Shown: positions 1-14,165 of the stretch, piece by piece
How the letters are laid out: every line of letters begins with the position of its first letter
Numbering within the stretch: the stretch's first letter is position 1
DNA from: Gloeocapsopsis sp. IPPAS B-1203
Lineage (GTDB): Bacteria; Cyanobacteriota; Cyanobacteriia; Cyanobacteriales; Chroococcidiopsidaceae
Direction of reading: 5' to 3'
NCBI RefSeq assembly: GCF_002749975.1
Contig: NZ_PEIG01000003.1
Span: 248,001-312,000, forward strand
DNA: 64,000 bases
Program-made: the position numbers and the translations under genes
The notes under the pieces: model-generated
Database searches by the model: none
What the model saw: the letters and a program-made list of their open reading frames with translations, nothing else
What the model was told of the DNA's origin: nothing

Positions 1-815
1 AACTCTAGCACTGGTAAATCTTGCAATTGCGATCGCCAGTAAGTCAGTTGTTCTAATTCTTGTAACTCATTACGTTGCCAGCAAGCAAAGTCTGTGTATT
101 GAATTGGTAATGCAGGTAATGTTGGTGTTTCCTTTAGCACAAAAGCACTATAAAAGCAAGCAAGTTCGCGGACAAGTATCCCCAATGACCAACCATCTGC
201 TACAATATGATGCATCGTTAGCAGCAAAATAAACTCATTAACGTCAAATTGCAGCAACGTGACTCGTAAAAGCAGATCGCTACTGAGATTAAACGGACGT
301 TGTGCTTCAGCAGTTGCTAACTGTTGAATGAGGCGATCGCGTTCCTCTTGCGGTACAAATTGTAAATCCACTACAGGTAACGTCAGCTTGACTTGAGCAG
401 CAATGACTTGAACAGGTCCATCAACAGTTTTAAATGTGGTACGCAGTGCTGCATGACGCCGGATAATTTCATTAAATGAGCGCTCTAATGCTGCTTGATG
501 AAGTGTTCCTTGCAACCGAATTGCCGCAGGCACATTATAAAAAGGATTGTCGGGTGCTAGCTGATATAAAAACCATAAACGCTGTTGAGCAAATGATAGA
601 GGATACGTTGTTGCACAAGCAGCAGGTTGAATCGGTGTCGAGTGCAAAGGTTGCTGATGCAGTGCTAAAATTTCGGCTTTGCGCTCAACTAACTGTTGTT
701 GTAGTTCTGGCGTGAGAGTTCCTTCAGGTGCATGACAACGCAGGCGATCGCCTTCTACTGATACTTGCACATCTAAACTTTTTAAATATGCTAGGAAGTC
801 AATAATTGTGGTCAT
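1..815 (-). CDS. Non-ribosomal peptide synthetase, N-terminal part (docking domain + condensation domain), cut by window edge
   Basis: About 271 codons are visible; the C-terminus lies beyond base 1. The first ~55 residues (MTTIIDFLAYLKSLDVQV...) read as a TubC-type N-terminal docking domain, which recruits the C-terminus of the preceding synthetase. A condensation domain follows: C1-like motif SFAQQRLWFLYQL, then HHIVADGWS, which matches the catalytic HHxxxDG motif intact. The start codon (815-813) overlaps the stop of the upstream NRPS gene in an ATGA junction, so the two are translationally coupled and this protein receives the chain from that C-A-PCP module. Adenylation and carrier domains are expected to the left. 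The domain types are certain; the product is unknown. Confidence 0.9.
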   Translation of the reverse strand, partial: MTTIIDFLAYLKSLDVQVSVEGDRLRCHAPEGTLTPELQQQLVERKAEILALHQQPLHSTPIQPAACATTYPLSFAQQRLWFLYQLAPDNPFYNVPAAIRLQGTLHQAALERSFNEIIRRHAALRTTFKTVDGPVQVIAAQVKLTLPVVDLQFVPQEERDRLIQQLATAEAQRPFNLSSDLLLRVTLLQFDVNEFILLLTMHHIVADGWSLGILVRELACFYSAFVLKETPTLPALPIQYTDFACWQRNELQELEQLTYWRSQLQDLPVLE

Positions 816-3800
816 AATTCTATTTCCTCGCGTCGCTGCTGGAGATGATCGGGAGTTTCTTGCCCTTGCACTGTTGAGACTGCATCGATTTTCTGTGCAA
901 GTTGGGCGATTGTGGGAGATTCAAACAAACTTCTTAGTGGAATTTCGACTTGAAAGCGATCGCGGATGCGGGAGATTAGTTGTGTTGCTAGTAGCGAATG
1001 TCCCCCCAACTCAAAGAAATTATCGTGAATTCCTACCTGTTTACGTCCTAGTAGTTGACACCACAGATCTACTAAAGATTTTTCTACCGAGGTACTAGGA
1101 GTCACTAATATTGTGTCTGGTGCAATTATGGGTAACGGTAATGCTTGGCGATCAATTTTGCCGTTAATTGTCAAAGGTAGTGTCTTTAATGATACAAACA
1201 CCGCAGGAATCATATATTGAGGTAGTTGCGTTTTTAAAAAAGAGCGCAAATCGCGATCGCTAACGACTGCTGTTGGTTGAGGAACAAAGTAAGCAATTAA
1301 TTGACGATCAGCAGCAACTTCGCGCACGTTTACTACCGCAGTTTGCACGCTGGGATGTTGTGCTAGAACTGTCTCAATCTCGCCCAACTCTACCCGAAAT
1401 CCGCGAATTTTAATTTGATTATCAATGCGACCTAAAAATTCAAGATTGCCATCCGCACGGCGACAAGCGCGATCGCCAGTTTTATAAAGACGAAGATTTC
1501 TATCTTGATCAAGCGGATGAAAAAACTTATCTGCAGTTAAATCTGGACGATTGAAATATCCTTGTGCTAACCCATCTCCACCAAGATAAATTTCCCCACT
1601 GATTCCCGCAGGAACTGGGTTAAAATGGGCATCTAATACATAAACTTGAGTATTGGCAATTGCCTGTCCGATGGGAATTGTTATGGCATTTTCTGGCACT
1701 TCTTGCACTTCATACCAAGTAGAAAATGTTGTATTTTCTGTAGGTCCATAAACATGGATAAGATGCTGAGGTTTACCGTGTTGTAGTACTGTGCGGACGC
1801 GATCGGGAGTTGCTGCTTCACCACCAAATAAGAGATATTTCAACGGTTGGAATGCATTAGGAACTTCAGCCACAGTTTGATTGAATAATGCTGTTGTCAA
1901 AAACATGACATTGATGTGCTGTTGCTGAAGCGCAGTTTTAAAATCTGTAGGTGACAGCGTTGTTTCTCGCTCAATATCTACTAACTCAGCACCATTAAGT
2001 AATGCGCCCCATATCTCAAAAGTCGCCGCATCAAAAGCAATATTTGCTACCTTAGCAACGCGATCGCCTGGTGCAATTTCTATGTAGTCAGTTTGGCAAA
2101 CTAATCGATTAACTGCGCGGTGAGTTACCATCACTCCTTTGGGCGTTCCTGTTGAGCCGGAAGTATAAATCACATAAGCTAGCTGATCTACGTTGCAAGG
2201 AGTATCCAAATTCTCCTCTGATTCTTGTGCGATCGCTGTCCATTCTTGGGCTAAATCAATTATTTTGACATTAGGTGTATTTAAAAATACTTCTTTTTTA
2301 TGTGTTATTATTAATGTAACTTGGGCATCTTCTACCAAAAAGCGCAGTCGTTCGGAAGGATAAGTAACGTCGAGAGGAACATAAGCACCGCCTGCTTTGA
2401 GAACTGCTAGCATTGCAGCAACGGTTTCTGTAGCTTGTTCTAGACAAATGCCTACACGTTCTGACTTGCCCAATTTCTGCAAATAACGTGCGAGTTGATT
2501 ACTACCTTGATTTAATTGTTGATAAGTAAATTGGTTTTGTGCACGGATTGCGATCGCTTGTGGTTGTTGACTAACCTGTGCTTCAAATAATTGATGAATA
2601 CAAACTTTGGGATAATTAGTACAAACACCATTTCCACTCAATAACACCTGTTGCTCTTGACTTGTTAATAACGGTAATAAAGATAAAGGCGTATCTGGAT
2701 TTGCCACAATCGCTGCTAGAAGTGTCTGAAAGTGATGTCGCAGGGAGGCGATCGCATCGGCTTCAAATAAATCAGTATTGTAAATAACGACACCGCGTAA
2801 CCCGTCAGATTGCTGCCATCCTTTGCCCCATAAATTTCTAAAATTACCTGTGCATTTCCACATATACACTTCTAGATCAAAGCGTGTTGTTTTCACCTCA
2901 AACTCAACTGGATTAAGAGCTAATCCTGGTAACTCTAGTTGTTCCATTGGAGTATTTTGGAGTGCAAAGACGACTTGAAATAGAGGATTTTGACTAAGAC
3001 TGCGAACAGGTTGCAGTTCTTCTACAAGCTTTTCAAACGGTAAATCTTGATGTGCATAAGCGGTTAGCGTGACATCTCTGACTCGATTTAGTAATTCACG
3101 AAACGAGGGATCGCCTGCTAGATTTGTCCGTAAAACAAGATTGTTGACGAGAAACCCGATAATTCCTTCTAATTCACTGCGGTGACGATTAGCGATCGGC
3201 GAACCCACAGCAATATCAGTTTGTGCAGTGTAGCGATACAGTAAAGTCTGAAACGCTGCTAACAAGGCCATAAATAGCGTCACACCTGCTTGCTGACTTA
3301 ACTCCTCTAAGGCATCAAGTAACTCTTGTGGTAACTCTAATAATTGACTTGCACCTTGATAACTTGGAACCAAAGGGCGAGGAGCAGAAGGTAAATTTAA
3401 AGTTGGTAGATCTTTTAACTGCTGTTTCCAGTAGTTTAATTGAGTATTTAACACTTCTCCTTGCAACCACTCACGCTGCCAATGGGCAAAATCAGCATAT
3501 TGAATCGGTAACTCTGGCAGTGCAGCAGGTTGATTGTTCACAAACGCAGAATACAGTTTGCCTAACTCTCGAATGAAAATACCGCTTGACCATTCATCAA
3601 AAATGATGTGGTGTAGGAGAATCAGCAGCAGATGTTCAGAGTGGTTCAATTGCCATAAGTGTACTCGAAATAGCGGTCCCTGCTTTAAGTTAAAAGGCTG
3701 CTGAATTTCTTGGCGGATCTGTTCTAAAGCGACTTGTTCGCAGGTTGTTGGCAATGCTTGAAGATTGATTAAGGCAAACGGCAGTTGCATCAAAGCCGGA

Positions 3801-4057
3801 GAGATAATCTGTACCAATTCCCCATCGATAACATCAAAAGTTGTCCGTAGCGTTTCGTGACGACAAGCGATCGCCTGCACACTTTGTTCTAGTGCTGAGT
3901 GATGCAATGAACCTGTGAGTTGAAATACCAGTGGAATTGTATAAAGAGAAGCCCCTGGAATTAATTGATCGATGAACCATAATCGCTGTTGGGCAAATGA
4001 AGCTGGAAAGACAAACACTTCCTCAACAGAATTACACTCTGTGCTTAAATCATTCAC
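812..4057 (-). CDS. Non-ribosomal peptide synthetase, single C-A-PCP module
   Basis: 1081 aa. A condensation domain (~residues 15-450) has SFAQQRLWF and HHIIFDEWS, the latter an accepted HHxxxD variant with E for G. An adenylation domain (~470-960) has A3 YTSGSTGTPKGV, A5 VYGPTEN, A7 YKTGD and A8 GRIDNQIKIRGFRVELGE. A carrier domain (~990-1055) has DNFFELGGHSLL, whose Ser takes phosphopantetheine. Aligning by eye to GrsA gives the pocket residues D-A-F-F-L-G-V-T-F plus the A10 Lys, resembling codes for branched aliphatic residues (Ile/Val); this is inference. The tail ends in an acidic RREEIEL, suited to bind the docking domain of the next protein, whose start overlaps this stop. There is no epimerase or thioesterase, so it is an elongation module. 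It is the first gene of the visible unit; the divergent gene starts ~150 bp away. Confidence 0.95.
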   Translation of the reverse strand: MNDLSTECNSVEEVFVFPASFAQQRLWFIDQLIPGASLYTIPLVFQLTGSLHHSALEQSVQAIACRHETLRTTFDVIDGELVQIISPALMQLPFALINLQALPTTCEQVALEQIRQEIQQPFNLKQGPLFRVHLWQLNHSEHLLLILLHHIIFDEWSSGIFIRELGKLYSAFVNNQPAALPELPIQYADFAHWQREWLQGEVLNTQLNYWKQQLKDLPTLNLPSAPRPLVPSYQGASQLLELPQELLDALEELSQQAGVTLFMALLAAFQTLLYRYTAQTDIAVGSPIANRHRSELEGIIGFLVNNLVLRTNLAGDPSFRELLNRVRDVTLTAYAHQDLPFEKLVEELQPVRSLSQNPLFQVVFALQNTPMEQLELPGLALNPVEFEVKTTRFDLEVYMWKCTGNFRNLWGKGWQQSDGLRGVVIYNTDLFEADAIASLRHHFQTLLAAIVANPDTPLSLLPLLTSQEQQVLLSGNGVCTNYPKVCIHQLFEAQVSQQPQAIAIRAQNQFTYQQLNQGSNQLARYLQKLGKSERVGICLEQATETVAAMLAVLKAGGAYVPLDVTYPSERLRFLVEDAQVTLIITHKKEVFLNTPNVKIIDLAQEWTAIAQESEENLDTPCNVDQLAYVIYTSGSTGTPKGVMVTHRAVNRLVCQTDYIEIAPGDRVAKVANIAFDAATFEIWGALLNGAELVDIERETTLSPTDFKTALQQQHINVMFLTTALFNQTVAEVPNAFQPLKYLLFGGEAATPDRVRTVLQHGKPQHLIHVYGPTENTTFSTWYEVQEVPENAITIPIGQAIANTQVYVLDAHFNPVPAGISGEIYLGGDGLAQGYFNRPDLTADKFFHPLDQDRNLRLYKTGDRACRRADGNLEFLGRIDNQIKIRGFRVELGEIETVLAQHPSVQTAVVNVREVAADRQLIAYFVPQPTAVVSDRDLRSFLKTQLPQYMIPAVFVSLKTLPLTINGKIDRQALPLPIIAPDTILVTPSTSVEKSLVDLWCQLLGRKQVGIHDNFFELGGHSLLATQLISRIRDRFQVEIPLRSLFESPTIAQLAQKIDAVSTVQGQETPDHLQQRREEIEL

Positions 4058-4209: not shown

Positions 4210-5658
4210 TTGAAACGCTGGCGGCGGCTGTTATTACTGCTATCAATTTTACTGATTGGGCTATCGTGGTGGGGAATTGTTGCAGCCCGAAATGGATTGG
4301 TTGTGCGATCGCTTGAACGAGATGTTCCATTACTGTATCTTGCACCACAACAAGCAACCGCTGCACCTGGAGTTTTAATTGCACATGGGTATGCAGGTTC
4401 TAAGCAACTCATGCTAGGCTACGCGCACGTTTTGGCTCGTGCTGGTTACGCTACGATGCTATGGGATTTTGACGGACATGGCGCAAACTCTCATCGATTG
4501 CAACGATTTGAATTACAGCAAAACCTAAATGTGGCACTAAATGCCTTACTAGAGCAACCGGAAGTTGATTCCACTCGCCTAGCTTTACTAGGTCATTCTA
4601 TGGGAAGTGGCATCGTGATGAATGCGGGAATTGAGCAGGTTGATTTATTTGATGCTGCGATCGCCGTTTCGCCAACAGGTGCATCTGTCACACCTCAAGC
4701 ACCGCGTAACTTACAACTGCAAGCAGGTAGTTGGGAAGGTCGATTTATTGCTAATGCCGAACGATTACTAACAGCAAGTGGAGGTACTAATGATAATTTT
4801 GCTGCAGGTACTGCTCGCGAATTGGTAATTGTTCCCAATGCCGAACACATCACTATTTTATTTAATGACGTCAGCCATCAAGCTGCGTTACGTTGGCTCA
4901 ATGCTACCTTTAACCAGTCTAGTACTAGCAATTATCGCGATCGCCGCATGGCTTGGTATGGTTTGCATTTGCTTGGTTGGTTACTACTACTAACAGCGGT
5001 AGCTTCTAGTCTTGTACCGCGTCAACCTCACTTCAAAAAAGTTCCTGCGTCAAGACGTTGGAGTGGGTTATTACTTGCACCTCTAATTGCTGCGGGCAGT
5101 GTAACACTTCTAAATCAAGGCGGTATAGAACTTGCGGGTCTAGGTGGCGTGCAGGTAGGCGGAGCCGTTAGTTTGTGGTTTTTCGTTGCGGGAATTACTT
5201 GGTTAGCATTGCTAGCTCGTCTGCCACGTCCTACATTAAGAACAGCAAAATGGGGACTGATTTTATTTGCTCTATTGTGGATAGCGTTTGGTGCAATGGC
5301 ACAAGTTGTTTGGTTGCAATGGTGGTTAATTCCTACGCGACTGCAAATTTGGTTGCCTTTGGCTGTTGCTTGTCTACCCTGGTTTTTAGCCTCTGGTATT
5401 GCCCAACAGGAAACCAGTACCAATGCCCGATTTGGTTGGTGGTTTGCTCAGAGTGTCATTTTAATTGGTGGTTTTCTATTAACGTTGAACTTTCTGCCCC
5501 AATTAGGCTTTATGTTTCTCCTATTGCCTTTATTTCCCCCTTTAATTGCTGTTCTCTCGTTAGTAGTTGCGTTTGTCAAAGAAGCGTGGATCTCGGCACT
5601 TGCGAGCGCTTTATTCTTCGGTTGGATTCTAGCCGCTGGTTTTCCACTTTCTAGTTAA
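4210..5658 (+). CDS. Alpha/beta hydrolase with multi-span C-terminal membrane domain
   Basis: 482 aa with a TTG start preceded by GGAG about 8 nt upstream. A membrane anchor (~residues 8-27) is followed by an alpha/beta hydrolase fold (~40-245): HGYAGSK near the oxyanion region, nucleophile elbow GHSMGSG, and a likely catalytic His in NAEHITI. From ~residue 248 to the end there are about seven hydrophobic segments rich in Trp and Leu. The catalytic domain is probably held at a membrane with a polytopic C-terminal part. Substrate unknown; a lipase, esterase or peptidase-like role would be a guess. It is divergent from the NRPS operon and convergent with the next gene, so probably transcribed alone. 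Confidence 0.85.
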   Translation: MKRWRRLLLLLSILLIGLSWWGIVAARNGLVVRSLERDVPLLYLAPQQATAAPGVLIAHGYAGSKQLMLGYAHVLARAGYATMLWDFDGHGANSHRLQRFELQQNLNVALNALLEQPEVDSTRLALLGHSMGSGIVMNAGIEQVDLFDAAIAVSPTGASVTPQAPRNLQLQAGSWEGRFIANAERLLTASGGTNDNFAAGTARELVIVPNAEHITILFNDVSHQAALRWLNATFNQSSTSNYRDRRMAWYGLHLLGWLLLLTAVASSLVPRQPHFKKVPASRRWSGLLLAPLIAAGSVTLLNQGGIELAGLGGVQVGGAVSLWFFVAGITWLALLARLPRPTLRTAKWGLILFALLWIAFGAMAQVVWLQWWLIPTRLQIWLPLAVACLPWFLASGIAQQETSTNARFGWWFAQSVILIGGFLLTLNFLPQLGFMFLLLPLFPPLIAVLSLVVAFVKEAWISALASALFFGWILAAGFPLSS

Positions 5659-5692
5659 CGCCAATCGCTCTGACCTCTGACCTCTTGCTATA

Positions 5693-6511
5693 TCAACGTC
5701 CATAATAAACTCGTGCATTACTTAAGCCAGAGTTGAGGAAAAATTGATTCCACTGTTCTGCTAGAGCACGATTGGAAAATGGTCCTACTCTAACATGAGA
5801 TCCGCGTGGTTGTGTTCGCTGACTGACATCAATGACAGCATTTTGCTGTAATTGCCTGATTTGATCTGCGATCGCAGGTAAACTTTCTCGTCTATCTGGA
5901 ATCACAACATAATAGGTGCGCGAATCTCCAGTAAAAGCTGTGTCGGTACCTGTGTTAAGATTGGCAATTCGTGCAACGACACCAGCAGATCTAAGTTCTT
6001 GGGCGCGTTGCTCAGCATTAGAATTTTGCTCAAATGCTCCAGCCTGAACGACTGCTCGTCCATTGTATTGTCGTACAAAGGCTTGTGGTTCGAGTTGTTT
6101 GACTTGTTCTAAAGTTGGGGAACTTGCATCATCAACATAAACTAAGTAACTTAAATTGCCACTGCTTGGAGTATTAACTGTAGGTGGTGTATTCGATGAT
6201 GGTGCTTGAAAATCAAATTCACGCGGAACAAAAATCGACGATGGTGATTGTTGTGCTACATCTGGCGTCTGTGGTGGTGGCGGTAGGCGATCGCTTACTG
6301 CTTCAGCTATAAAAATATCCTGAGATGATGCGACTTCGATAGCTGTTACGAACCACCCCCCTAACACTATGGCAGTTAAGGAGATGATGAGAGATGGTTT
6401 AGCTTGAGCAAACCAACTGGCATTGCACAGTGGATGACGTGTGTTCATCTTGATGTGTTGTAATGCTGAGCGCAAACGGGAATTGATTTTTATGAGTGAT
6501 AAATTAGACAC
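5693..6511 (-). CDS. Single-pass membrane protein with SPOR-like periplasmic domain
   Basis: 272 aa. A cytoplasmic N-terminus of ~35 residues is followed by one membrane segment (SLIISLTAIVLGGWFV, ~residues 42-60). A Pro/Ser-rich linker (~85-125) precedes a C-terminal region with two repeats resembling SPOR sub-motifs (VVQAGAFEQNSNAEQRAQEL and VRVGPFSNRALAEQWNQFF), the usual alternation of a beta strand, a (x)GPF or GAF turn and an Ala-rich helix. SPOR domains bind denuded peptidoglycan glycan strands, so a cell-envelope role is likely. Similar proteins are common but uncharacterised in cyanobacteria. It stands alone between convergent and co-directional genes. Confidence 0.75.
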   Translation of the reverse strand: MSNLSLIKINSRLRSALQHIKMNTRHPLCNASWFAQAKPSLIISLTAIVLGGWFVTAIEVASSQDIFIAEAVSDRLPPPPQTPDVAQQSPSSIFVPREFDFQAPSSNTPPTVNTPSSGNLSYLVYVDDASSPTLEQVKQLEPQAFVRQYNGRAVVQAGAFEQNSNAEQRAQELRSAGVVARIANLNTGTDTAFTGDSRTYYVVIPDRRESLPAIADQIRQLQQNAVIDVSQRTQPRGSHVRVGPFSNRALAEQWNQFFLNSGLSNARVYYGR

Positions 6512-6744
6512 TTTAGCGTCAAAGTAGGTTGCTTGACTGACTAAAATGCATAAATGTTACAAAAGCAAGTTACCGCTATTGGTATTGTCTGTTCAAGCGC
6601 AATTTTGCTGAGAAATATAGTAATTTTGGTGCTTATTTTATCTATCTATCAGTAAATATACAGTAGGCGATCGCGCTCAGCAAACTACCTACTCAAAGTT
6701 GATAGTTGTTGTCATAGTATTCTCAGTGTGAATTGAGTAAATTG

Positions 6745-7449
6745 CTACACGGCAACAGCAACGTTGCCACAACGTTCGTTGGCTGGAACTGCTTCCATAA
6801 TTTTTTGGGGATTGGGCAAGTTGAGATTATCCATAAACTCAATGAAGCCGTCGCGCGTACGCCCTATAAAGCGGGGATTCCACTGCTTTTCTTCCCCGAT
6901 TGTGGATACTGTATGTCCTCGATAGTCGTGTCCAGGATAAACTAAGGTATCGTCTGGAAGGGTAAACAGGCGCTGAGTTACAGAGTCGTATAATGTTCCG
7001 GCATCACCACTTTGAAAATCAGTACGCCCACAGCCACGAATAAATAAAGCATCACCTGTTAATAACTGCGTGTCATTGACAAGATATGCTACATGGCTAT
7101 CAGTATGTCCAGGAGTGGCGATCGCTTGAATATAGACATCCCCAATCTGCAATGTTTCGCCATCTCGAATGAAGCAATTAGCACAAGCTGCATTGGCTTT
7201 TTCTGGTACAACTCCGTGACATCCTGTGAGTTCGCGTAGTTTCGCTGTACCAGTGATGTGATCGGCATGGATGTGTGTTTCTAAGCAATAACGGAGTGTT
7301 AAACCTAACTCATCAATAAGTTTGCGATCGCGTTCGACTTGTTCCACGACTGGATCGACAATTACTGCGTCTTTTGATTTGGAGTCTGCAATGAGATAGG
7401 TATAGGTTCCAGTATTTTGATCGAACAGTTGACGAAATAGCATATGCAC
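6745..7449 (-). CDS. ETHE1-type persulfide dioxygenase (MBL fold)
   Basis: 234 aa, the usual size for a single-domain ETHE1 protein. Metal-binding THIHADH comes early, followed by TPGHTDSH and a GDALFIRGCGRTDFQ block that distinguishes ETHE1/Blh persulfide dioxygenases from glyoxalase II, then YPGHDYRG near the C-terminus. Members use one non-haem iron to oxidise glutathione persulfide to sulfite. The neighbouring SqrR/BigR-like repressor and DUF442 protein support sulfide or persulfide detoxification. A perfect ACTATATAGT palindrome lies ~60 bp upstream of the start and resembles sites near the repressor gene. Confidence 0.88.
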   Translation of the reverse strand: MHMLFRQLFDQNTGTYTYLIADSKSKDAVIVDPVVEQVERDRKLIDELGLTLRYCLETHIHADHITGTAKLRELTGCHGVVPEKANAACANCFIRDGETLQIGDVYIQAIATPGHTDSHVAYLVNDTQLLTGDALFIRGCGRTDFQSGDAGTLYDSVTQRLFTLPDDTLVYPGHDYRGHTVSTIGEEKQWNPRFIGRTRDGFIEFMDNLNLPNPQKIMEAVPANERCGNVAVAV

Positions 7450-7508
7450 TTGCTCCTGATTTTTCGCGATAGACTGTTGCTATCCTCAGTTAATGAGCCA
7501 AATATATA

Positions 7509-7518
7509 ACTATATAGT
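7509..7518. promoter_or_regulatory. Candidate operator, ACTATATAGT palindrome
   Basis: A perfect 10-bp palindrome lies ~60 bp before the dioxygenase start. The same half-site (TATATAGT / ACTAAATA) recurs at the start codon of the ArsR-type gene, so it is a candidate binding site for that repressor. AT-rich composition makes chance matches possible. Confidence 0.4.
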
Positions 7519-7604
7519 AAAATGACTGAGATGTAATTGCAATACTATTTGTGTTGATTGACAAAAAATACCGCTTATCGGTGCTTTAATAAAAATGCTC
7601 AATA

Positions 7605-7991
7605 TCAAGCACGACGTAATTTTCCTAGTTGCTCTAATTGTTCGCTTTGTTGAGTTATTTGAATAGAAAGGGCGTCACAAACCATCTCGCACAGATCAAA
7701 TAAAATAGGATTCGCTATTTCGTAGTAAACGCACACACCGCGCTGTTCGCGGGAGACAATACCCGCCTGCGTAAGTATTCTTAAGTGCTTTGAAACGTTG
7801 GCTTGTCCGAGTTCAGTAGCTTCAATAATTTCACTCACATTTTTAGCTCCCGATTTGAGCGCACAGACAATTTGCAAACGGCTGACTTCTGACAAAACCT
7901 TGAAAAACTCGGCAATCAATCCTAGTGCTGCTGGCGACAATTGTGTCATTTCAGATGCTGTTAGAGAGGCATCACTGGAGTGTGGCGTCAT
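7605..7991 (-). CDS. ArsR-family transcriptional repressor, SqrR/BigR-like (persulfide-responsive type)
   Basis: 128 aa winged-helix protein. The recognition helix region reads ELGQANVSKHLRILTQAGIV and the wing REQRGVCVYYEI. Cysteines are at 43 (LQIVCAL, helix 2), 87, 101 and 105 (EMVCDAL, C-terminal helix). Cys43 and Cys105 sit where the two persulfide-sensing cysteines of SqrR and BigR lie (41/107 and 42/108 in the characterised proteins). A metal-binding CVC box is absent. The inferred role is repression of the neighbouring sulfur genes until persulfide links Cys43 and Cys105. A candidate operator abuts its own start codon, implying autorepression. Confidence 0.82.
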   Translation of the reverse strand: MTPHSSDASLTASEMTQLSPAALGLIAEFFKVLSEVSRLQIVCALKSGAKNVSEIIEATELGQANVSKHLRILTQAGIVSREQRGVCVYYEIANPILFDLCEMVCDALSIQITQQSEQLEQLGKLRRA

Positions 7992-8007
7992 ATATAGTGA
8001 CTAAATA
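7991..8007. promoter_or_regulatory. Candidate ArsR operator, TATATAGT-G-ACTAAATA
   Basis: A near-perfect 17-bp inverted repeat (one mismatched pair) touches the start codon of the ArsR-family gene. A further half-site TATTTAGT is at 8043-8050, in the shared upstream region of the DUF442 gene. The position suits autoregulation and control of the divergent promoter. Confidence 0.45.
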
Positions 8008-8154
8008 ATAAGATTAATTAGCTTTTATTTCTATTATATAGCTATTTAGTGATAAATCTTTCGGTCTCTGATTCAATTATCCATCCATAGCTAGATTATT
8101 CTATATGATTAACTAGTAATATAGCAAATAAGTAAGATGGTGAAATAGTTAAAA

Positions 8155-8610
8155 ATGCAGAACATCAAAAAAATTAACGATGAAATTGCAGTAGCAACAA
8201 ATCAATTGACACCAGAAGACTTGCAGCAAGCAGCACAAGCAGGATATCGCACCGTATTGAATTTGCGATCGCCTCATGAAGAGGGAGTGTTACCAGAAGA
8301 ACAGCAGTATGCAGAAGCCGCAGGATTACAGTATGTCAACATTCCTGTGAAGCCTGATAGCTTGAATCAAGAACTAGCAGATCAGGTGCTACAGCAAATT
8401 GAGCAATCACCAAAACCTGTACTAGCTCATTGTAAAAGTGGTTTGCGTTCTGGTGCAATGGCATTGATGTATGTTGCCACTTGTGAAGGGATAAGTGCAC
8501 AAGAAGCGATGCAGCGGGGACAGCAAATGGGATTCGACTGTAGTGCTAATCCAGCTATGAAAAAGTTTTTTGAAGATTACGTAACGACAGACTTCCAACG
8601 CTCACAGTAG
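8155..8610 (+). CDS. DUF442 protein (Blh-type sulfurtransferase/phosphatase-like domain)
   Basis: 151 aa. It opens with a typical DUF442 pattern: ATNQLTPEDLQQAAQAGYRT, a strand TVLNLRSPHEE, and ADQVLQQIEQSP before the active loop AHCKSGLRS (HCx5RS), the cysteine loop shared by dual-specificity phosphatases and rhodanese-like proteins. In the Blh proteins controlled by BigR this domain is fused to an ETHE1 dioxygenase; here the same two parts are separate genes on either side of a BigR-like repressor. It probably handles persulfide sulfur for the dioxygenase. A degraded rhodanese reading frame begins within a few bases of its stop. Confidence 0.85.
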   Translation: MQNIKKINDEIAVATNQLTPEDLQQAAQAGYRTVLNLRSPHEEGVLPEEQQYAEAAGLQYVNIPVKPDSLNQELADQVLQQIEQSPKPVLAHCKSGLRSGAMALMYVATCEGISAQEAMQRGQQMGFDCSANPAMKKFFEDYVTTDFQRSQ

Positions 8611-8616
8611 CAAGCA

Positions 8617-8813
8617 GGAGAAAAAATTAATGAGGAACATTTGCACGAGCTACATCGGTCTAAGTGTATACTTACGTACTACGGTAGCGGTTTTCTGGCG
8701 TCAATTGCTGCTAGTCTGCTGAAAAAGCGTGGATTCGAGGAGTAGCGAATATTCCTAGCTCTTGGATTGCCTGGACAGCAAAGTTACCTGTTGAGACAAC
8801 TAAAAAAAATTAA
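8617..8813 (+). pseudogene. Frameshifted remnant of a rhodanese-domain gene
   Basis: Frame 1 (codons in phase with 8644) reads HLHELHRSKCILTYYGSG then SIAASLLKKRGF before a TAG at 8743. The +1-shifted frame continues as RGVANIPSSWIAWTAKLP and VETTKKN, with stop TAA at 8811-8813. Joined, this matches the C-terminal half of a rhodanese domain (YCGSGYRSxIAASLL...NVANIxxGxxAWxAAKLPVE). The catalytic Cys of the YCGSG loop is Tyr, the N-terminal half is missing and there is no start codon. It is therefore a decayed gene, probably once co-transcribed with the DUF442 gene just upstream. Confidence 0.75.
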
Positions 8814-8849
8814 GCTCTTGGGAACTTTCCGAGTTTCGATCCCAAGAGC
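8814..8849. terminator. Bidirectional hairpin terminator between convergent genes
   Basis: GCTCTTGGGA (8814-8823) pairs perfectly with TCCCAAGAGC (8840-8849) around a 16-nt loop. CTTTT follows on the plus strand. On the minus strand the hairpin is followed by TTAATTTTTTTT. The position between convergent transcription units fits. The 8850-9053 stretch beyond it holds nothing else I can support. Confidence 0.75.
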
Positions 8850-9053
8850 CTTTTCAATCCAGTTCACTCCTCACACAACTAAGTCTAAGATTTCTAGTAG
8901 GAGAAATATGAATAAGAGTGACACTTTTCATATTGTCATCCTAGGTTTAGAAAACAAAAAACACTGACATTGTAAGGAGAATACTCTTTAAATTTAACTT
9001 GACTAGCTTTCTGCTTTCCCAGAAACGCAATATTTTGTTACTGAAAGTTTCAT

Positions 9054-9866
9054 TTAGTTTTGGGCGATCGCGGGAGTTTTTACGTGCAAGCGTTGAAACA
9101 TAGCTTCCCGTGCTTGTTGTGCCAAAGTGTCATTGAGGGGTGAAAGTGATATTGCTGATTGATACTTTTGTCTGAGCGCAGTTTGAATGAGCCAGTCGGC
9201 AACAAATGGATTTTTGGGTAATAATGGACCATGCGAATAAGTCGCGATCGCATTTTGATAAAACGCACCTTCTGTACCATCTTCACCATTGTTACCTAAA
9301 CCTTGGACAACTTTTCCCAGAGCTTCGACTTGTCCTAACTTAGTTCGTCCACCATGATTTTCAAACCCAATCAAGTATGCAGGAGAACCAATCATTGCTG
9401 CAAGTTCTTGTGCCAATCGTTTTGCGGTGACTTCAACAACAAGATTGCCAATACAACGGCGGGCGTTTGTTCCTGGATGAACTGAGATAAAATCTAGTAA
9501 CCCTAATCCTTCAATTCGTTGTCCTAAAGCAGGTTCATAGTAGTGTCCGAGTAATTGTGGCGCACCGCAAGTAAATACACCAGGAGTCCCGTTATCAATT
9601 TTTTCTCGCAAGGTTTCAGCTTTAGTACCGCGTAAATCGCGCATCACAATTTCTTGTTGTCGATCTTGCGCACCACCACCGACAATCATATCTACGCTTT
9701 GAAAGTCTACTGCTGTGGCATTTTGATCGAGAGGTAATACTTTTACTGTATACCCGCGCCACTCACAACGTTTTCGCAGACAAATGACATTTCCGCGATC
9801 GCCGTAAGTACTCATTAAGGTGGGATATAGCCAGCCGATTGTTAGTTCAATTTGTTCTGGATGCAT
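9054..9866 (-). CDS. gatD: Lipid II isoglutaminyl synthase, glutamine amidotransferase subunit GatD
   Basis: 270 aa CobB/CobQ-like class I amidotransferase. The N-terminus has LYPTLMSTYGDRGNVI, typical of GatD. The nucleophilic Cys lies in GVFTCGAPQLLG (usual form CGGYQLLG) and the catalytic His in FENHGGRTKLG or the later YSHGPLLPKNP. GatD supplies ammonia to MurT, which amidates the D-glutamate of lipid II. It starts 34 bp after the murT stop, so the two form an operon. The cyanobacterial pair is assigned by homology; biochemical data come mainly from Gram-positive bacteria. Confidence 0.9.
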   Translation of the reverse strand: MHPEQIELTIGWLYPTLMSTYGDRGNVICLRKRCEWRGYTVKVLPLDQNATAVDFQSVDMIVGGGAQDRQQEIVMRDLRGTKAETLREKIDNGTPGVFTCGAPQLLGHYYEPALGQRIEGLGLLDFISVHPGTNARRCIGNLVVEVTAKRLAQELAAMIGSPAYLIGFENHGGRTKLGQVEALGKVVQGLGNNGEDGTEGAFYQNAIATYSHGPLLPKNPFVADWLIQTALRQKYQSAISLSPLNDTLAQQAREAMFQRLHVKTPAIAQN

Positions 9867-12743: not shown

Positions 12744-14165
12744 ATGAAAATATCAGTAGAGGAAGCAATAGAAATAGTAGAAAGTGTCACTCAAGAAGGT
12801 GGTTTAAGTAAAGTACAAGAAATTGTTTTTCGTCAATGTTGGGAAGGATGCTCATACCAAGAAATTGCTAGAAAATCTGGATATCAACTAGGCTATATTA
12901 GAGATGTTGGTCATAAACTGTGGCAATCACTTTCAAAAGCTTTCGGTCAAAAAATTACAAAAACTAATTTTCAACGAGCTATTAAACAATATCAAATAAC
13001 TGCATTATCTCCAAAGAATGAACTTCAGACAACACCAACAAGTGCTAGTAATGTACCCCCTGTACAATTAAGTACAGTCAGCCAAAAGCAAGATTGGCAA
13101 GAGAAAATTGATGTTTCCATGTTTTTTGGTCGTACGACTGAATTATCTAATTTGGAACAGTGGATAATTAGCGATCGCTGTCGTGTAATCTCGCTTTATG
13201 GAATGCCAGGAATTGGGAAAACGTTATTAGCAGCATTCTGTGCAGAACAGATGCAGTACAAGTTTGAGTATCTCATCTGGCGCAACGTGCGTAATGCTCA
13301 ACCAATTAGAGAATTATTAACAGAAATCGTTTTATTTTTATCACAACGACAAGTAGGAGAATTGCCGCAGACAACAGACGACTTAATCTCATGTTTAATG
13401 AAGTACTTAAGGGAGCATCGTTGTTTATTGATCTTAGATAACTACGAATCTATTTTACAAAGTGGTGGAAAAGCTGGGCGTTATCGCGATACCTACGAAG
13501 GATATGGTCAATTACTACGGCAAGTAGCCGACGAAAGTCATCAAAGCTGCTTGTTGCTGACGACAAGAGAGATGCCCATTGGTTTAACAGTCAAAGAAGG
13601 CGATCAGTTACCTGTGCGATCGCTGCAATTAAGTGGTTTGTCATCAGAACCAGCCTATGAAATTTTAAGAACAAAAGGTCTAGTATTCAATAACGAAGAA
13701 GCACAAGGTTTAGTGACTCGTTATTCAGGTAATCCACTTGCTTTAAAAATTGTAGCTGTAGCAATTCAGTCTCTATATAAACAAGATATATCTAAGTTTT
13801 TGTCTCAAGGTCGAATTGTTTTTGGAGAGATCTGGGATTTGTTAGAACAGCAATTTAATCGTCTATCGAACCGTGAAAAGCAAGTGATGTTGTGGTTAAC
13901 AAGTTATCAAGAAGACACCTCTTTATTGAAACTAGATGAAAACAACTTGCCTGGATTATCTACAAGAGTAGTGTTAGAAGCTTTGCAATCTCTACAAATG
14001 CGATCGTTCATAGAAAACAACTCATTGCGTTTTACCCAGCCCAATATGATTTTAGAGTACATTAAAGAAGTAACCCACTATAAAAGCGAATCTAGTATTC
14101 TCAAATTCGCAACAATCTCTTCAGAATTGAGTCAGCTTCCAATACTTACAAAAAACCAAGGTTAA
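12744..14165 (+). CDS. NB-ARC STAND NTPase with N-terminal HTH domain, lacking sensor repeats
   Basis: 473 aa. The N-terminal ~90 residues (VEEAIEIVESVTQEGGLSKV, then CWEGCSYQEIARKSGY) form the helix-turn-helix domain seen at the start of cyanobacterial NB-ARC proteins (vWA-MoxR-associated type). Residues ~125-400 are NB-ARC: Walker A YGMPGIGKTLLA, Walker B LLILDNYE, sensor LLLTTREMP and YSGNPLALKIVA in place of GLPL. A winged-helix region follows and the protein stops. Relatives usually continue into WD40 or TPR repeats that sense a ligand, so this is a short or truncated form. Signalling or defence is the usual inference; the target is unknown. Confidence 0.8.
   Translation: MKISVEEAIEIVESVTQEGGLSKVQEIVFRQCWEGCSYQEIARKSGYQLGYIRDVGHKLWQSLSKAFGQKITKTNFQRAIKQYQITALSPKNELQTTPTSASNVPPVQLSTVSQKQDWQEKIDVSMFFGRTTELSNLEQWIISDRCRVISLYGMPGIGKTLLAAFCAEQMQYKFEYLIWRNVRNAQPIRELLTEIVLFLSQRQVGELPQTTDDLISCLMKYLREHRCLLILDNYESILQSGGKAGRYRDTYEGYGQLLRQVADESHQSCLLLTTREMPIGLTVKEGDQLPVRSLQLSGLSSEPAYEILRTKGLVFNNEEAQGLVTRYSGNPLALKIVAVAIQSLYKQDISKFLSQGRIVFGEIWDLLEQQFNRLSNREKQVMLWLTSYQEDTSLLKLDENNLPGLSTRVVLEALQSLQMRSFIENNSLRFTQPNMILEYIKEVTHYKSESSILKFATISSELSQLPILTKNQG

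Follow-up and report, generated by a model that had tools for sequence, protein, structure and literature searches.

Here, we describe a reduced sulfur locus in a 64-kb stretch of DNA (hereafter the window; G000:C3:248001-312000) from a 5.9-Mb cyanobacterial genome, in which genes for an ETHE1-type persulfide dioxygenase (PDO) and a DUF442 protein flank a gene for an ArsR-family repressor (Table 1). With a probability of about 0.6, we read it as a self-regulated detoxification locus for persulfides and sulfane sulfur, in which the local ArsR is released by sulfane sulfur and switches on PDO and DUF442. What is reported below on the identities of the genes, the deletions, the candidate operators, the conserved cysteines and the position in the best trees comes from computation. 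An earlier note on this DNA had already proposed a persulfide-metabolism locus with a local ArsR, and the gene identities, neighbourhoods and operator candidates agree with that proposal. The locus probably works like the BigR-Blh module, with a switch that need not be BigR, and the ArsR seems to represent a distinct family, widespread and apparently uncharacterised, that has its own arrangement of cysteines and its own DNA site.

We infer the DNA binding, repression, inducer, cysteine pairing and enzyme coupling as follows. A dimer of the ArsR would bind a 20-bp AT-rich palindrome, ATATWACYATATRGTWATAT, in the PDO promoter and block transcription, and it would also bind weaker copies at its own promoter and that of DUF442, leading to repression there. 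Persulfide or polysulfide would modify C101 on helix alpha5, probably with a cross-link to C43 (alpha2) or C105 (alpha5), and the modified ArsR would leave the DNA, allowing PDO and DUF442 to be produced. The DUF442 protein may then transfer sulfane sulfur onto glutathione, and oxidation of the resulting persulfide to sulfite by PDO may follow, in the manner of the fused Blh.

The two enzymes and their relation to Blh

The best solved relative of the dioxygenase is 4ysb (phmmer, E 1.8e-83, aligned from residue 3), and human ETHE1 (4chl) is matched at E 2.7e-71. The letters contain HIHADH and RGCGRTDFQ, which we take to be motifs, the former presumably that of the iron site; sequence family and iron-site motif both place the protein among the ETHE1-type PDOs. 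The DUF442 protein scores 57.2 bits against PF04273, above the cut-off of 26.1, and 76.7 bits against TIGR01244, slightly under the cut-off of 85.85. Its HCKSGLRS loop has the form C-x4-R, starting at C93, and such a loop is shared by every one of the 44 distinct DUF442 sequences that align there (the window protein counted in), whereas the phosphatases aligned with the protein have a C-x5-R loop, one residue longer. The shorter loop is a mark of rhodanese-type enzymes. Both identifications had been suggested in the earlier note and both stand.

On the 423-position profile of Blh (NF040641), the DUF442 protein covers positions 2-130 and the best stretch of PDO is 261-405, each scoring far under the cut-off of 625 bits. 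The two ends of the profile are thus matched by two genes that lie on opposite strands, to either side of the ArsR gene, as the earlier note had described for the halves of Blh. In the BigR-Blh operon of Xylella, Agrobacterium and Sinorhizobium, as here, DUF442 and ETHE1 enzymes go together with an ArsR repressor, and TauE of that operon is also found in the fuller island of a congener (G005). However, Blh is a single fused protein, in contrast to the two separate proteins of the window, and BigR has cysteines 42/108 where the window ArsR has 43/101/105. For Blh, the sulfurtransferase and dioxygenase activities have been measured, and they are coupled (PMC5823870).

A candidate operator in the PDO promoter

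A matrix for the palindrome (22 bits) was built from 21 ArsR/PDO or ArsR/DUF442 intergenic regions, with the window and congener G005 left out. Its three best matches in the window are those of Table 1, and the congener has three matching sites (24.3, 15.3 and 8.9). In 30 simulated 64-kb sequences, the score maxima have a mean of 9.9 and reach 17.1 at the highest. The site in front of PDO overlaps a -10-like TATAGT at 7514-7509, and it is the sole match without mismatch in the genome to a consensus that was drawn up with knowledge of this site. The search for a second strong operator in the genome gave one site with two mismatches (G000:C16:117891, present also in the congener at G005:C85:5308), near a thymidylate-kinase-like gene as named by eye; a control pattern also matched once in this genome, and the candidate was rejected. 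Operator scores near the other ArsR genes of the genome are at most 7.6.

Loci outside the training set were scanned from 1.5 kb before to 1.9 kb after the start of the ArsR match, using a score of at least 15. Such a site is present at 14 of 20 loci with C43 and sulfur genes (the window and G005 counted in), at 11/35 with C43 and no sulfur genes, at 5/26 without C43, and in 0 of 100 random 3.4-kb windows. Among distant relatives not labelled Cyanobacteriota, 17 of 47 (one of the 48 was too short) carry one within 300 bp upstream, in seven phyla, against 0 of 1580 shuffles. The nearby palindromes mentioned in the earlier note are therefore present and beyond chance by the matrix scan and by the random-window and shuffle controls. 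The same candidate operator is found in the SuoR promoter region of Synechocystis: it is the only strong site of pSYSM (18.5) and lies between an SQR gene and a divergent gene, matched by order to suoS/suoR, in a region reported as the target of SuoR binding and repression (PMC4307280). At the blh loci of Sinorhizobium and Bosea, no operator match was seen (best -0.2 and 1.8), and the reported SqrR operator, ATTC-N8-GAAT (PMC9774250), is unlike the palindrome of the window.

Table 1 Features of the locus (window coordinates)
Feature	Position	Strand	Remarks
Site of the congener's TauE and rhodanese-TM genes	6512..6744		About 1.4 kb missing, break near 6703
ETHE1-type persulfide dioxygenase (PDO)	6745..7443	(-)	ATG at 7443 is the probable start; GTG-initiated ORF reaches 7449
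Candidate operator ATATAACTATATAGTAAAAT	7504..7523		Upstream of PDO, overlaps -10-like hexamer; score 25.3, best in 64 kb
ArsR-family repressor	7605..7991	(-)	C43 (alpha2), C101 and C105 (alpha5)
Weak operator-like site	8036..8055		ArsR side of the ArsR/DUF442 intergenic region; score 10.7, third best; congener 8.9
Operator-like site	8103..8122		Upstream of DUF442; score 14.1, second best in 64 kb; congener 15.3
DUF442 (BLH_phosphatase-like) putative sulfurtransferase	8155..8610	(+)	PF04273; active-site loop C93-x4-R98
Remnant of CstB-like MBL-rhodanese-rhodanese gene	8632..8801	(+)	Last ~58 residues, frameshifted; rest deleted

Cysteines and placement of the ArsR

The window ArsR has cysteines at 43, 87, 101 and 105. 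In an AlphaFold2 model (pLDDT 87.8, 23 sequences), the helix predicted at 36-47 holds C43, and a long one at 95-127 holds both C101 and C105. SqrR (6o8l) fits the model with Z 13.8 (18-109 on 20-111, 92 residues) and BigR (3pqj) with Z 13.6 (13-110 on 14-111, 98 residues). SmtB, CzrA and other structures of ArsR proteins fit as well as SqrR does (Z 12-15), so that the fold says nothing on the signal. The earlier note had put Cys43 and Cys105 at the sensing positions of SqrR and BigR. For C43 this is right, since SqrR C41 and BigR C42 fall on it in the sequence and structural alignments alike. For C105 it is not: in both alignments SqrR C107 and BigR C108 fall on S109, with C105 four residues, or one helical turn, earlier, and C43/C105 as a SqrR-type pair was ruled out on these grounds.

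Relatives were collected in two sets. The close set holds 102 proteins, what remains of 105 sequences once L196 and L105, each a second copy of one locus, and L111, from Rubrobacter, are removed; it includes the window protein, three paralogues from the same genome and four plasmid rows (L106, L107, L109, L110). The distant set holds the best 80 of 577 confirmed stretches in a genome collection of 84,980 species, scanned with peptide patterns without the cysteines and led by a Rubrobacter relative; 32 are labelled Cyanobacteriota, and two lack a phylum label, one of which bears the title filamentous cyanobacterium. The regions compared, 80 + 20, were chosen from longer lists of places.

C101, absent from the earlier note, is invariant in both sets (102/102 and 80/80). 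In the close set, C43, C101 and C105 occur together in 68 proteins, C101 and C105 without C43 in 26, C43 and C101 without C105 in 7, and C101 alone of the three in 1, which means that C101 is accompanied by C43 or C105 in 101 of 102. C101 and C105 are found together in 94 close and all 80 distant relatives, C43 is present in 1 of the 80, and a vicinal C43-C44 is present in 25 of the 102. Its invariance makes C101 the leading candidate for an essential thiol, and C43 or C105 would act as its partner.

In the trees, the SqrR, BigR and HlyU members included form one group (support 97 in one tree and 98/94 in the other), a branch separate from the window ArsR. In the best trees the window protein falls outside it, among relatives from other phyla that have the C-x3-C pair (96/79), and beyond this C-x3-C family come SuoR and two ArsRs linked to cation transporters (97/90 and 95/83). 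On the BigR model NF040642, the window ArsR reaches 41 bits against a cut-off of 155. Given the best trees, this score, the match at one of two cysteine positions and the lack of an operator match at the blh loci examined, the label 'BigR-type' used in the earlier note is not supported. An approximately unbiased (AU) test of a joint clade of C43-bearing rows with SqrR/BigR/HlyU did not reject it (p 0.257); an independent gain of C43, apart from the SqrR-type cysteine, is favoured by the best trees but is therefore only likely.

Several known regulators can be compared with the window ArsR. With the SqrR/HlyU group, in which YgaV and SoxR are also counted (PMC12423496), it has the fold and the C41-type cysteine in common, but the second cysteine, at the equivalent of 109, differs. 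SuoR, the ArsR-like repressor of an SQR gene pair on pSYSM, shares a QANVSKHL recognition helix and the equivalent of C101 with the window protein at 34% identity; it is without C43 and C105, and instead of PDO or DUF442 it has SQR, DUF302 and ChrA as neighbours. RexT, the H2O2-sensing regulator of Nostoc, is likewise a cyanobacterial ArsR with a cysteine switch, reported at Cys40/41 in alpha3 and to regulate thioredoxin (PMC8960804). It was rejected as a member of the family, as the 7txm structures were not among the matches of the window protein at E 1e-3. TsoR (NF045707) was rejected as the family name at 50.4 bits against a cut-off of 115; this model is matched by all 24 members scanned (best E 4e-15), and no use of the name was found in the literature results checked.

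The genome carries three paralogues of the ArsR, on C1, C25 and C10 (L021, L022 and L023; 61, 56 and 39% identity), all without C43 and without strong operator sites. One has a nitrate-type ABC ATPase as a neighbour and one is preceded by an accB-like gene (named by eye).

A larger island, reduced by deletion

In congener G005 (L085), the locus reads TauE, rhodanese/YgaP-TM (transmembrane), PDO and ArsR, followed by DUF442 and a CstB-like gene with MBL (metallo-beta-lactamase), rhodanese and rhodanese parts. By blastn of window 5601-9100 against L085, the ~1.4 kb missing at 6703 correspond to TauE and nearly all of rhodanese-TM, and ~1.2 kb near 8622 to most of CstB; a further ~370 bp near 8057-8075 are absent from the window, or inserted in G005. 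The rhodanese remnant mentioned in the earlier note is confirmed at 8632-8801, where two reading frames match residues 406-463 in the CstB-like protein of the congener (E 1e-18; 141/175 bases identical in the alignment), with the first piece also recovered by the genome search. The rhodanese Cys of the congener is a Tyr in the remnant. The genome search gave no intact CstB in the window's genome, and the best rhodanese-TM match there is at 35%, over the rhodanese part.

The split set described in the earlier note is a deletion product of a larger ArsR-PDO-rhodanese-TM-TauE island (with DUF442 and CstB in addition) that is seen in the congener and in relatives, and a split BigR module as the ancestral design was rejected because L085 has the full island and pieces of the same island are missing from the window. 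Nor is the split arrangement peculiar to cyanobacteria: separate DUF442 and MBL genes adjoin in Azospirillum and Rubrobacter. On the Rubrobacter tropicus plasmid, an ArsR of the family that lacks C43 has DUF442, TauE and an MBL-fold gene as neighbours. Judged by dN/dS against G005 (0.10 for PDO, 0.04 for ArsR and 0.10 for DUF442), the three genes are survivors kept by selection over the divergence from the congener, although part of this purifying selection may predate the gene losses. The window thus offers a view of island shrinkage, where the exporter and CstB have been lost and the dioxygenase, the sulfurtransferase and the regulator stay under apparent selection. The Staphylococcus cst operon (CstR/CstA/CstB/SQR/TauE) has a CstB-type MBL-rhodanese and TauE in common with the congener island; CstR is a CsoR-type regulator, unlike the window ArsR.

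Decay of the CstB-like gene next to a regulator or island that is still intact seems to have occurred in several relatives, with stop-containing pieces in L086 (G293:C4), two partial pieces in G303:C1:4094240-4095059, two frames in L089/L105 (a PCC 7203 plasmid) and the tail in the window.

SQR as the sulfide source in this genome was looked for and rejected. A type I query found none, while it gave strong matches in G112, G105 and G008, and a type II query gave a weak partial match alone (30% over 107 residues, E 6e-7), in a 457-aa open reading frame, while it gave near-identical matches in G293 and G299. With the sulfite exporter, membrane rhodanese and CstB of the island lost and no clear type I or type II SQR found, sulfane sulfur that arises within the cell is the likely substrate.

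Gene neighbourhoods of close and distant relatives

Within 4.5 kb of the 75 C43-bearing close relatives, PDO is found at 33 loci, rhodanese-TM at 27, DUF442 at 7, CstB at 7, TauE at 6 and 19, and SQR at 3 and 3 (two queries each for the last two). The 27 close relatives without C43 have PDO at 2, DUF442 at 2, rhodanese-TM at 1 and SQR at 2. Any marker is present near 40/75 against 3/27, and PDO, DUF442, CstB or rhodanese-TM near 38/75 against 2/27; of 40 randomly drawn 9-kb windows in 20 of these genomes, one had a marker, a 30%-identity MBL protein. As rhodanese-TM is nearby more often than DUF442, ArsR-PDO-rhodanese-TM-TauE is the recurrent core and DUF442 an optional part.

Fourteen phylum labels occur among the best 80 of the 577 distant relatives (Actinomycetota, Myxococcota, Acidobacteriota, Verrucomicrobiota, Planctomycetota, Balneolota, Pseudomonadota, Krumholzibacteriota, Melainabacteria, Ignavibacteriota, Gemmatimonadota, Chloroflexota, Bacteroidota and Cyanobacteriota). 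A sulfur marker is nearby in 25 of the 48 not labelled Cyanobacteriota. When neighbours were clustered with no chosen queries, the largest cluster was an MBL-fold group at 18 loci in 8 phyla, with an MBL-rhodanese-YgaP-TM protein as the representative shown. Taken together, the operator, the cysteines of alpha5 and the neighbouring genes suggest that this is an ArsR family of its own, spread across many phyla.

Some individual neighbourhoods were also recorded. A Planctomycete MBL-rhodanese-YgaP-TM fusion at L237:3115-4437, beside an ArsR of the C-x3-C family, differs from the Blh and CstB fusions. At L092:10613-11532 (G011), the ArsR is divergent from a YeeE/YedE-type sulfur transporter gene pair, with PF04143 in the first gene. 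At L104:6397-7716 (G299) and L135:6297-7655 (G168), the ArsR is followed by an opposite-strand FAD protein resembling type II SQR; the call was made by eye from the stretch HYYQPGWTLVGGG, and Pfam gives general FAD/NAD oxidoreductase families only. In Pseudanabaena, an RND adaptor lies near SQR and ArsR. Distant relatives including Pseudomonadota (L297, L243 and L248; also L109) adjoin DUF2892 and HlyD-, RND- and TolC-like efflux genes, and the clusters of this type, named by eye, comprise 11, 9 and 6 loci.

Weighing the readings

Several points weigh against a persulfide-controlled detoxification locus. The seed for the operator search was picked by eye with the regions of the window also in view, 6 of the 20 untrained C43 loci with sulfur genes have no site of at least 15, and a sigma-70-like promoter scan of the region gave 3 sites against 2.6 expected, which is no excess. 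The sites at 8103 and 8036 (14.1 and 10.7) are singly within the range of the simulated maxima, and because these reach 17.1, the two are convincing by place, not by score. The window locus retains neither a sulfite exporter nor SQR. None of the markers is seen near 35 of the 75 C43-bearing relatives, and the association of C43 with context amounts to four C43 changes on the tree, with two independent pairs on supported branches (four on all); with so few changes it is not independent evidence, and the correlation (Fisher p 5.6e-5) was dropped as proof of function. Among distant relatives, a sulfur marker is seen at 0/7 Pseudomonadota, which stand beside DUF2892 and RND-type genes, though an operator is at 5/7, and the 32 Cyanobacteriota have a marker in 2 and an operator in 1. 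Some close relatives lie near low-oxygen genes, namely psbA (7 loci), a rubrerythrin-fold protein that we assume to be AcsF-like (10) and heme oxygenase (3), at loci that include L153, L205, L142 and L110. On these counts, the inducing signal may be broader than persulfide. Finally, SuoR-type loci are reported to be tied also to arsenite (PMC5061849, PMC11304991), and no experiment on the window ArsR or a close relative was found in the literature.

The main rival to the persulfide inducer is arsenite or a general thiol oxidant. An arsenite or thiophilic-metalloid sensor, with C43, C101 and C105 as a trithiolate site and PDO and DUF442 in a thiol-stress response, would suit an ArsR protein, as these often use alpha5 thiols. 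The shared operator of the SuoR promoter region leads in the same direction, given that the genes of SuoR are linked to sulfide and arsenite (PMC4307280, PMC5061849) and that an arsR beside type II sqr and tauE has been read as arsenic defence (PMC11304991). Yet the recurrent neighbours of the family are MBL/rhodanese, rhodanese-TM and TauE genes, no ars gene was seen among the neighbour clusters (the largest ones, mostly named by eye), and SuoR itself is without two of the three thiols, C105 and C43, so we regard such a sensor as unlikely. A general thiol-redox or low-oxygen switch, for which persulfide would be one oxidant of several, is quite improbable. It would account for the low-oxygen neighbours given above, and the C43-C44 pair of 25 close relatives recalls RexT, whose pair, however, lies in alpha3 (PMC8960804). 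However, psbA, AcsF-like and heme oxygenase genes are absent from the surroundings of the window locus, the neighbour clusters listed for distant relatives held none that could be recognised, and sulfur genes dominate the supported contexts.

That the window ArsR is a true SqrR/BigR member, using C43 and C105 as SqrR uses C41 and C107, we consider quite improbable as well. The alignment of C43 with C41/C42, the similar target genes, the statement that SqrR/BigR homologues occur in Cyanobacteria (PMC9774250) and the joint clade left standing by the AU test all speak for it. They are set against a best-tree position with C-x3-C relatives and away from SqrR/BigR/HlyU, a C105 that lies four residues before the SqrR/BigR cysteine, the low BigR-model score, an operator unlike that reported for SqrR and without a match at the Sinorhizobium and Bosea blh loci, and the lack of C43 in 79 of 80 distant relatives.

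The self-regulated sulfane-sulfur locus remains our preferred reading, and it leads to a wider one that we put forward tentatively, at somewhat less than even odds. An unnamed pan-bacterial ArsR family may sense sulfane sulfur via an invariant alpha5 C-x3-C, using the 20-bp operator in at least eight phyla (the seven above and Cyanobacteria), and may control fused modules (CstB; the Planctomycete MBL-rhodanese-TM) or split ones (PDO with DUF442 or rhodanese-TM and TauE). C43 would have been added independently in Cyanobacteria, so that a SqrR-like alpha2 cysteine would have arisen twice. The window ArsR fits this family, with C101 and C105 present and the operator candidate upstream. If this is true, the genes beside cyanobacterial sqr and tauE that have been read as 'arsenic regulators' would be regulators of sulfur.

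ArsR-like genes near 27 cyanobacterial sqr genes are already known (PMC5061849), and SQR and PDO are known in PCC 7002 (PMC7042703). ArsR genes next to cyanobacterial sulfide genes have so far been read as arsenic regulators (PMC11304991), and ArsR genes have been counted with SqrR/BigR homologues in Cyanobacteria (PMC9774250). In the open literature, seen mostly as titles and abstract openings, we found no description of the C-x3-C family, its operator and its alpha5 cysteine pair, or of the split PDO/DUF442 arrangement in cyanobacteria. The locus can be useful for understanding how oxygenic phototrophs sense sulfane sulfur, with testable predictions on the operator and on C101, C105 and C43.

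Other features of the window

Outside the locus, the stretch at 12744-14165 encodes an NB-ARC/STAND-type ATPase, whose Pfam matches at E 0.01 include no effector domain. At 812-4057 lies a nonribosomal peptide synthetase-like open reading frame, followed by another that runs off the edge of the window (both named by eye).

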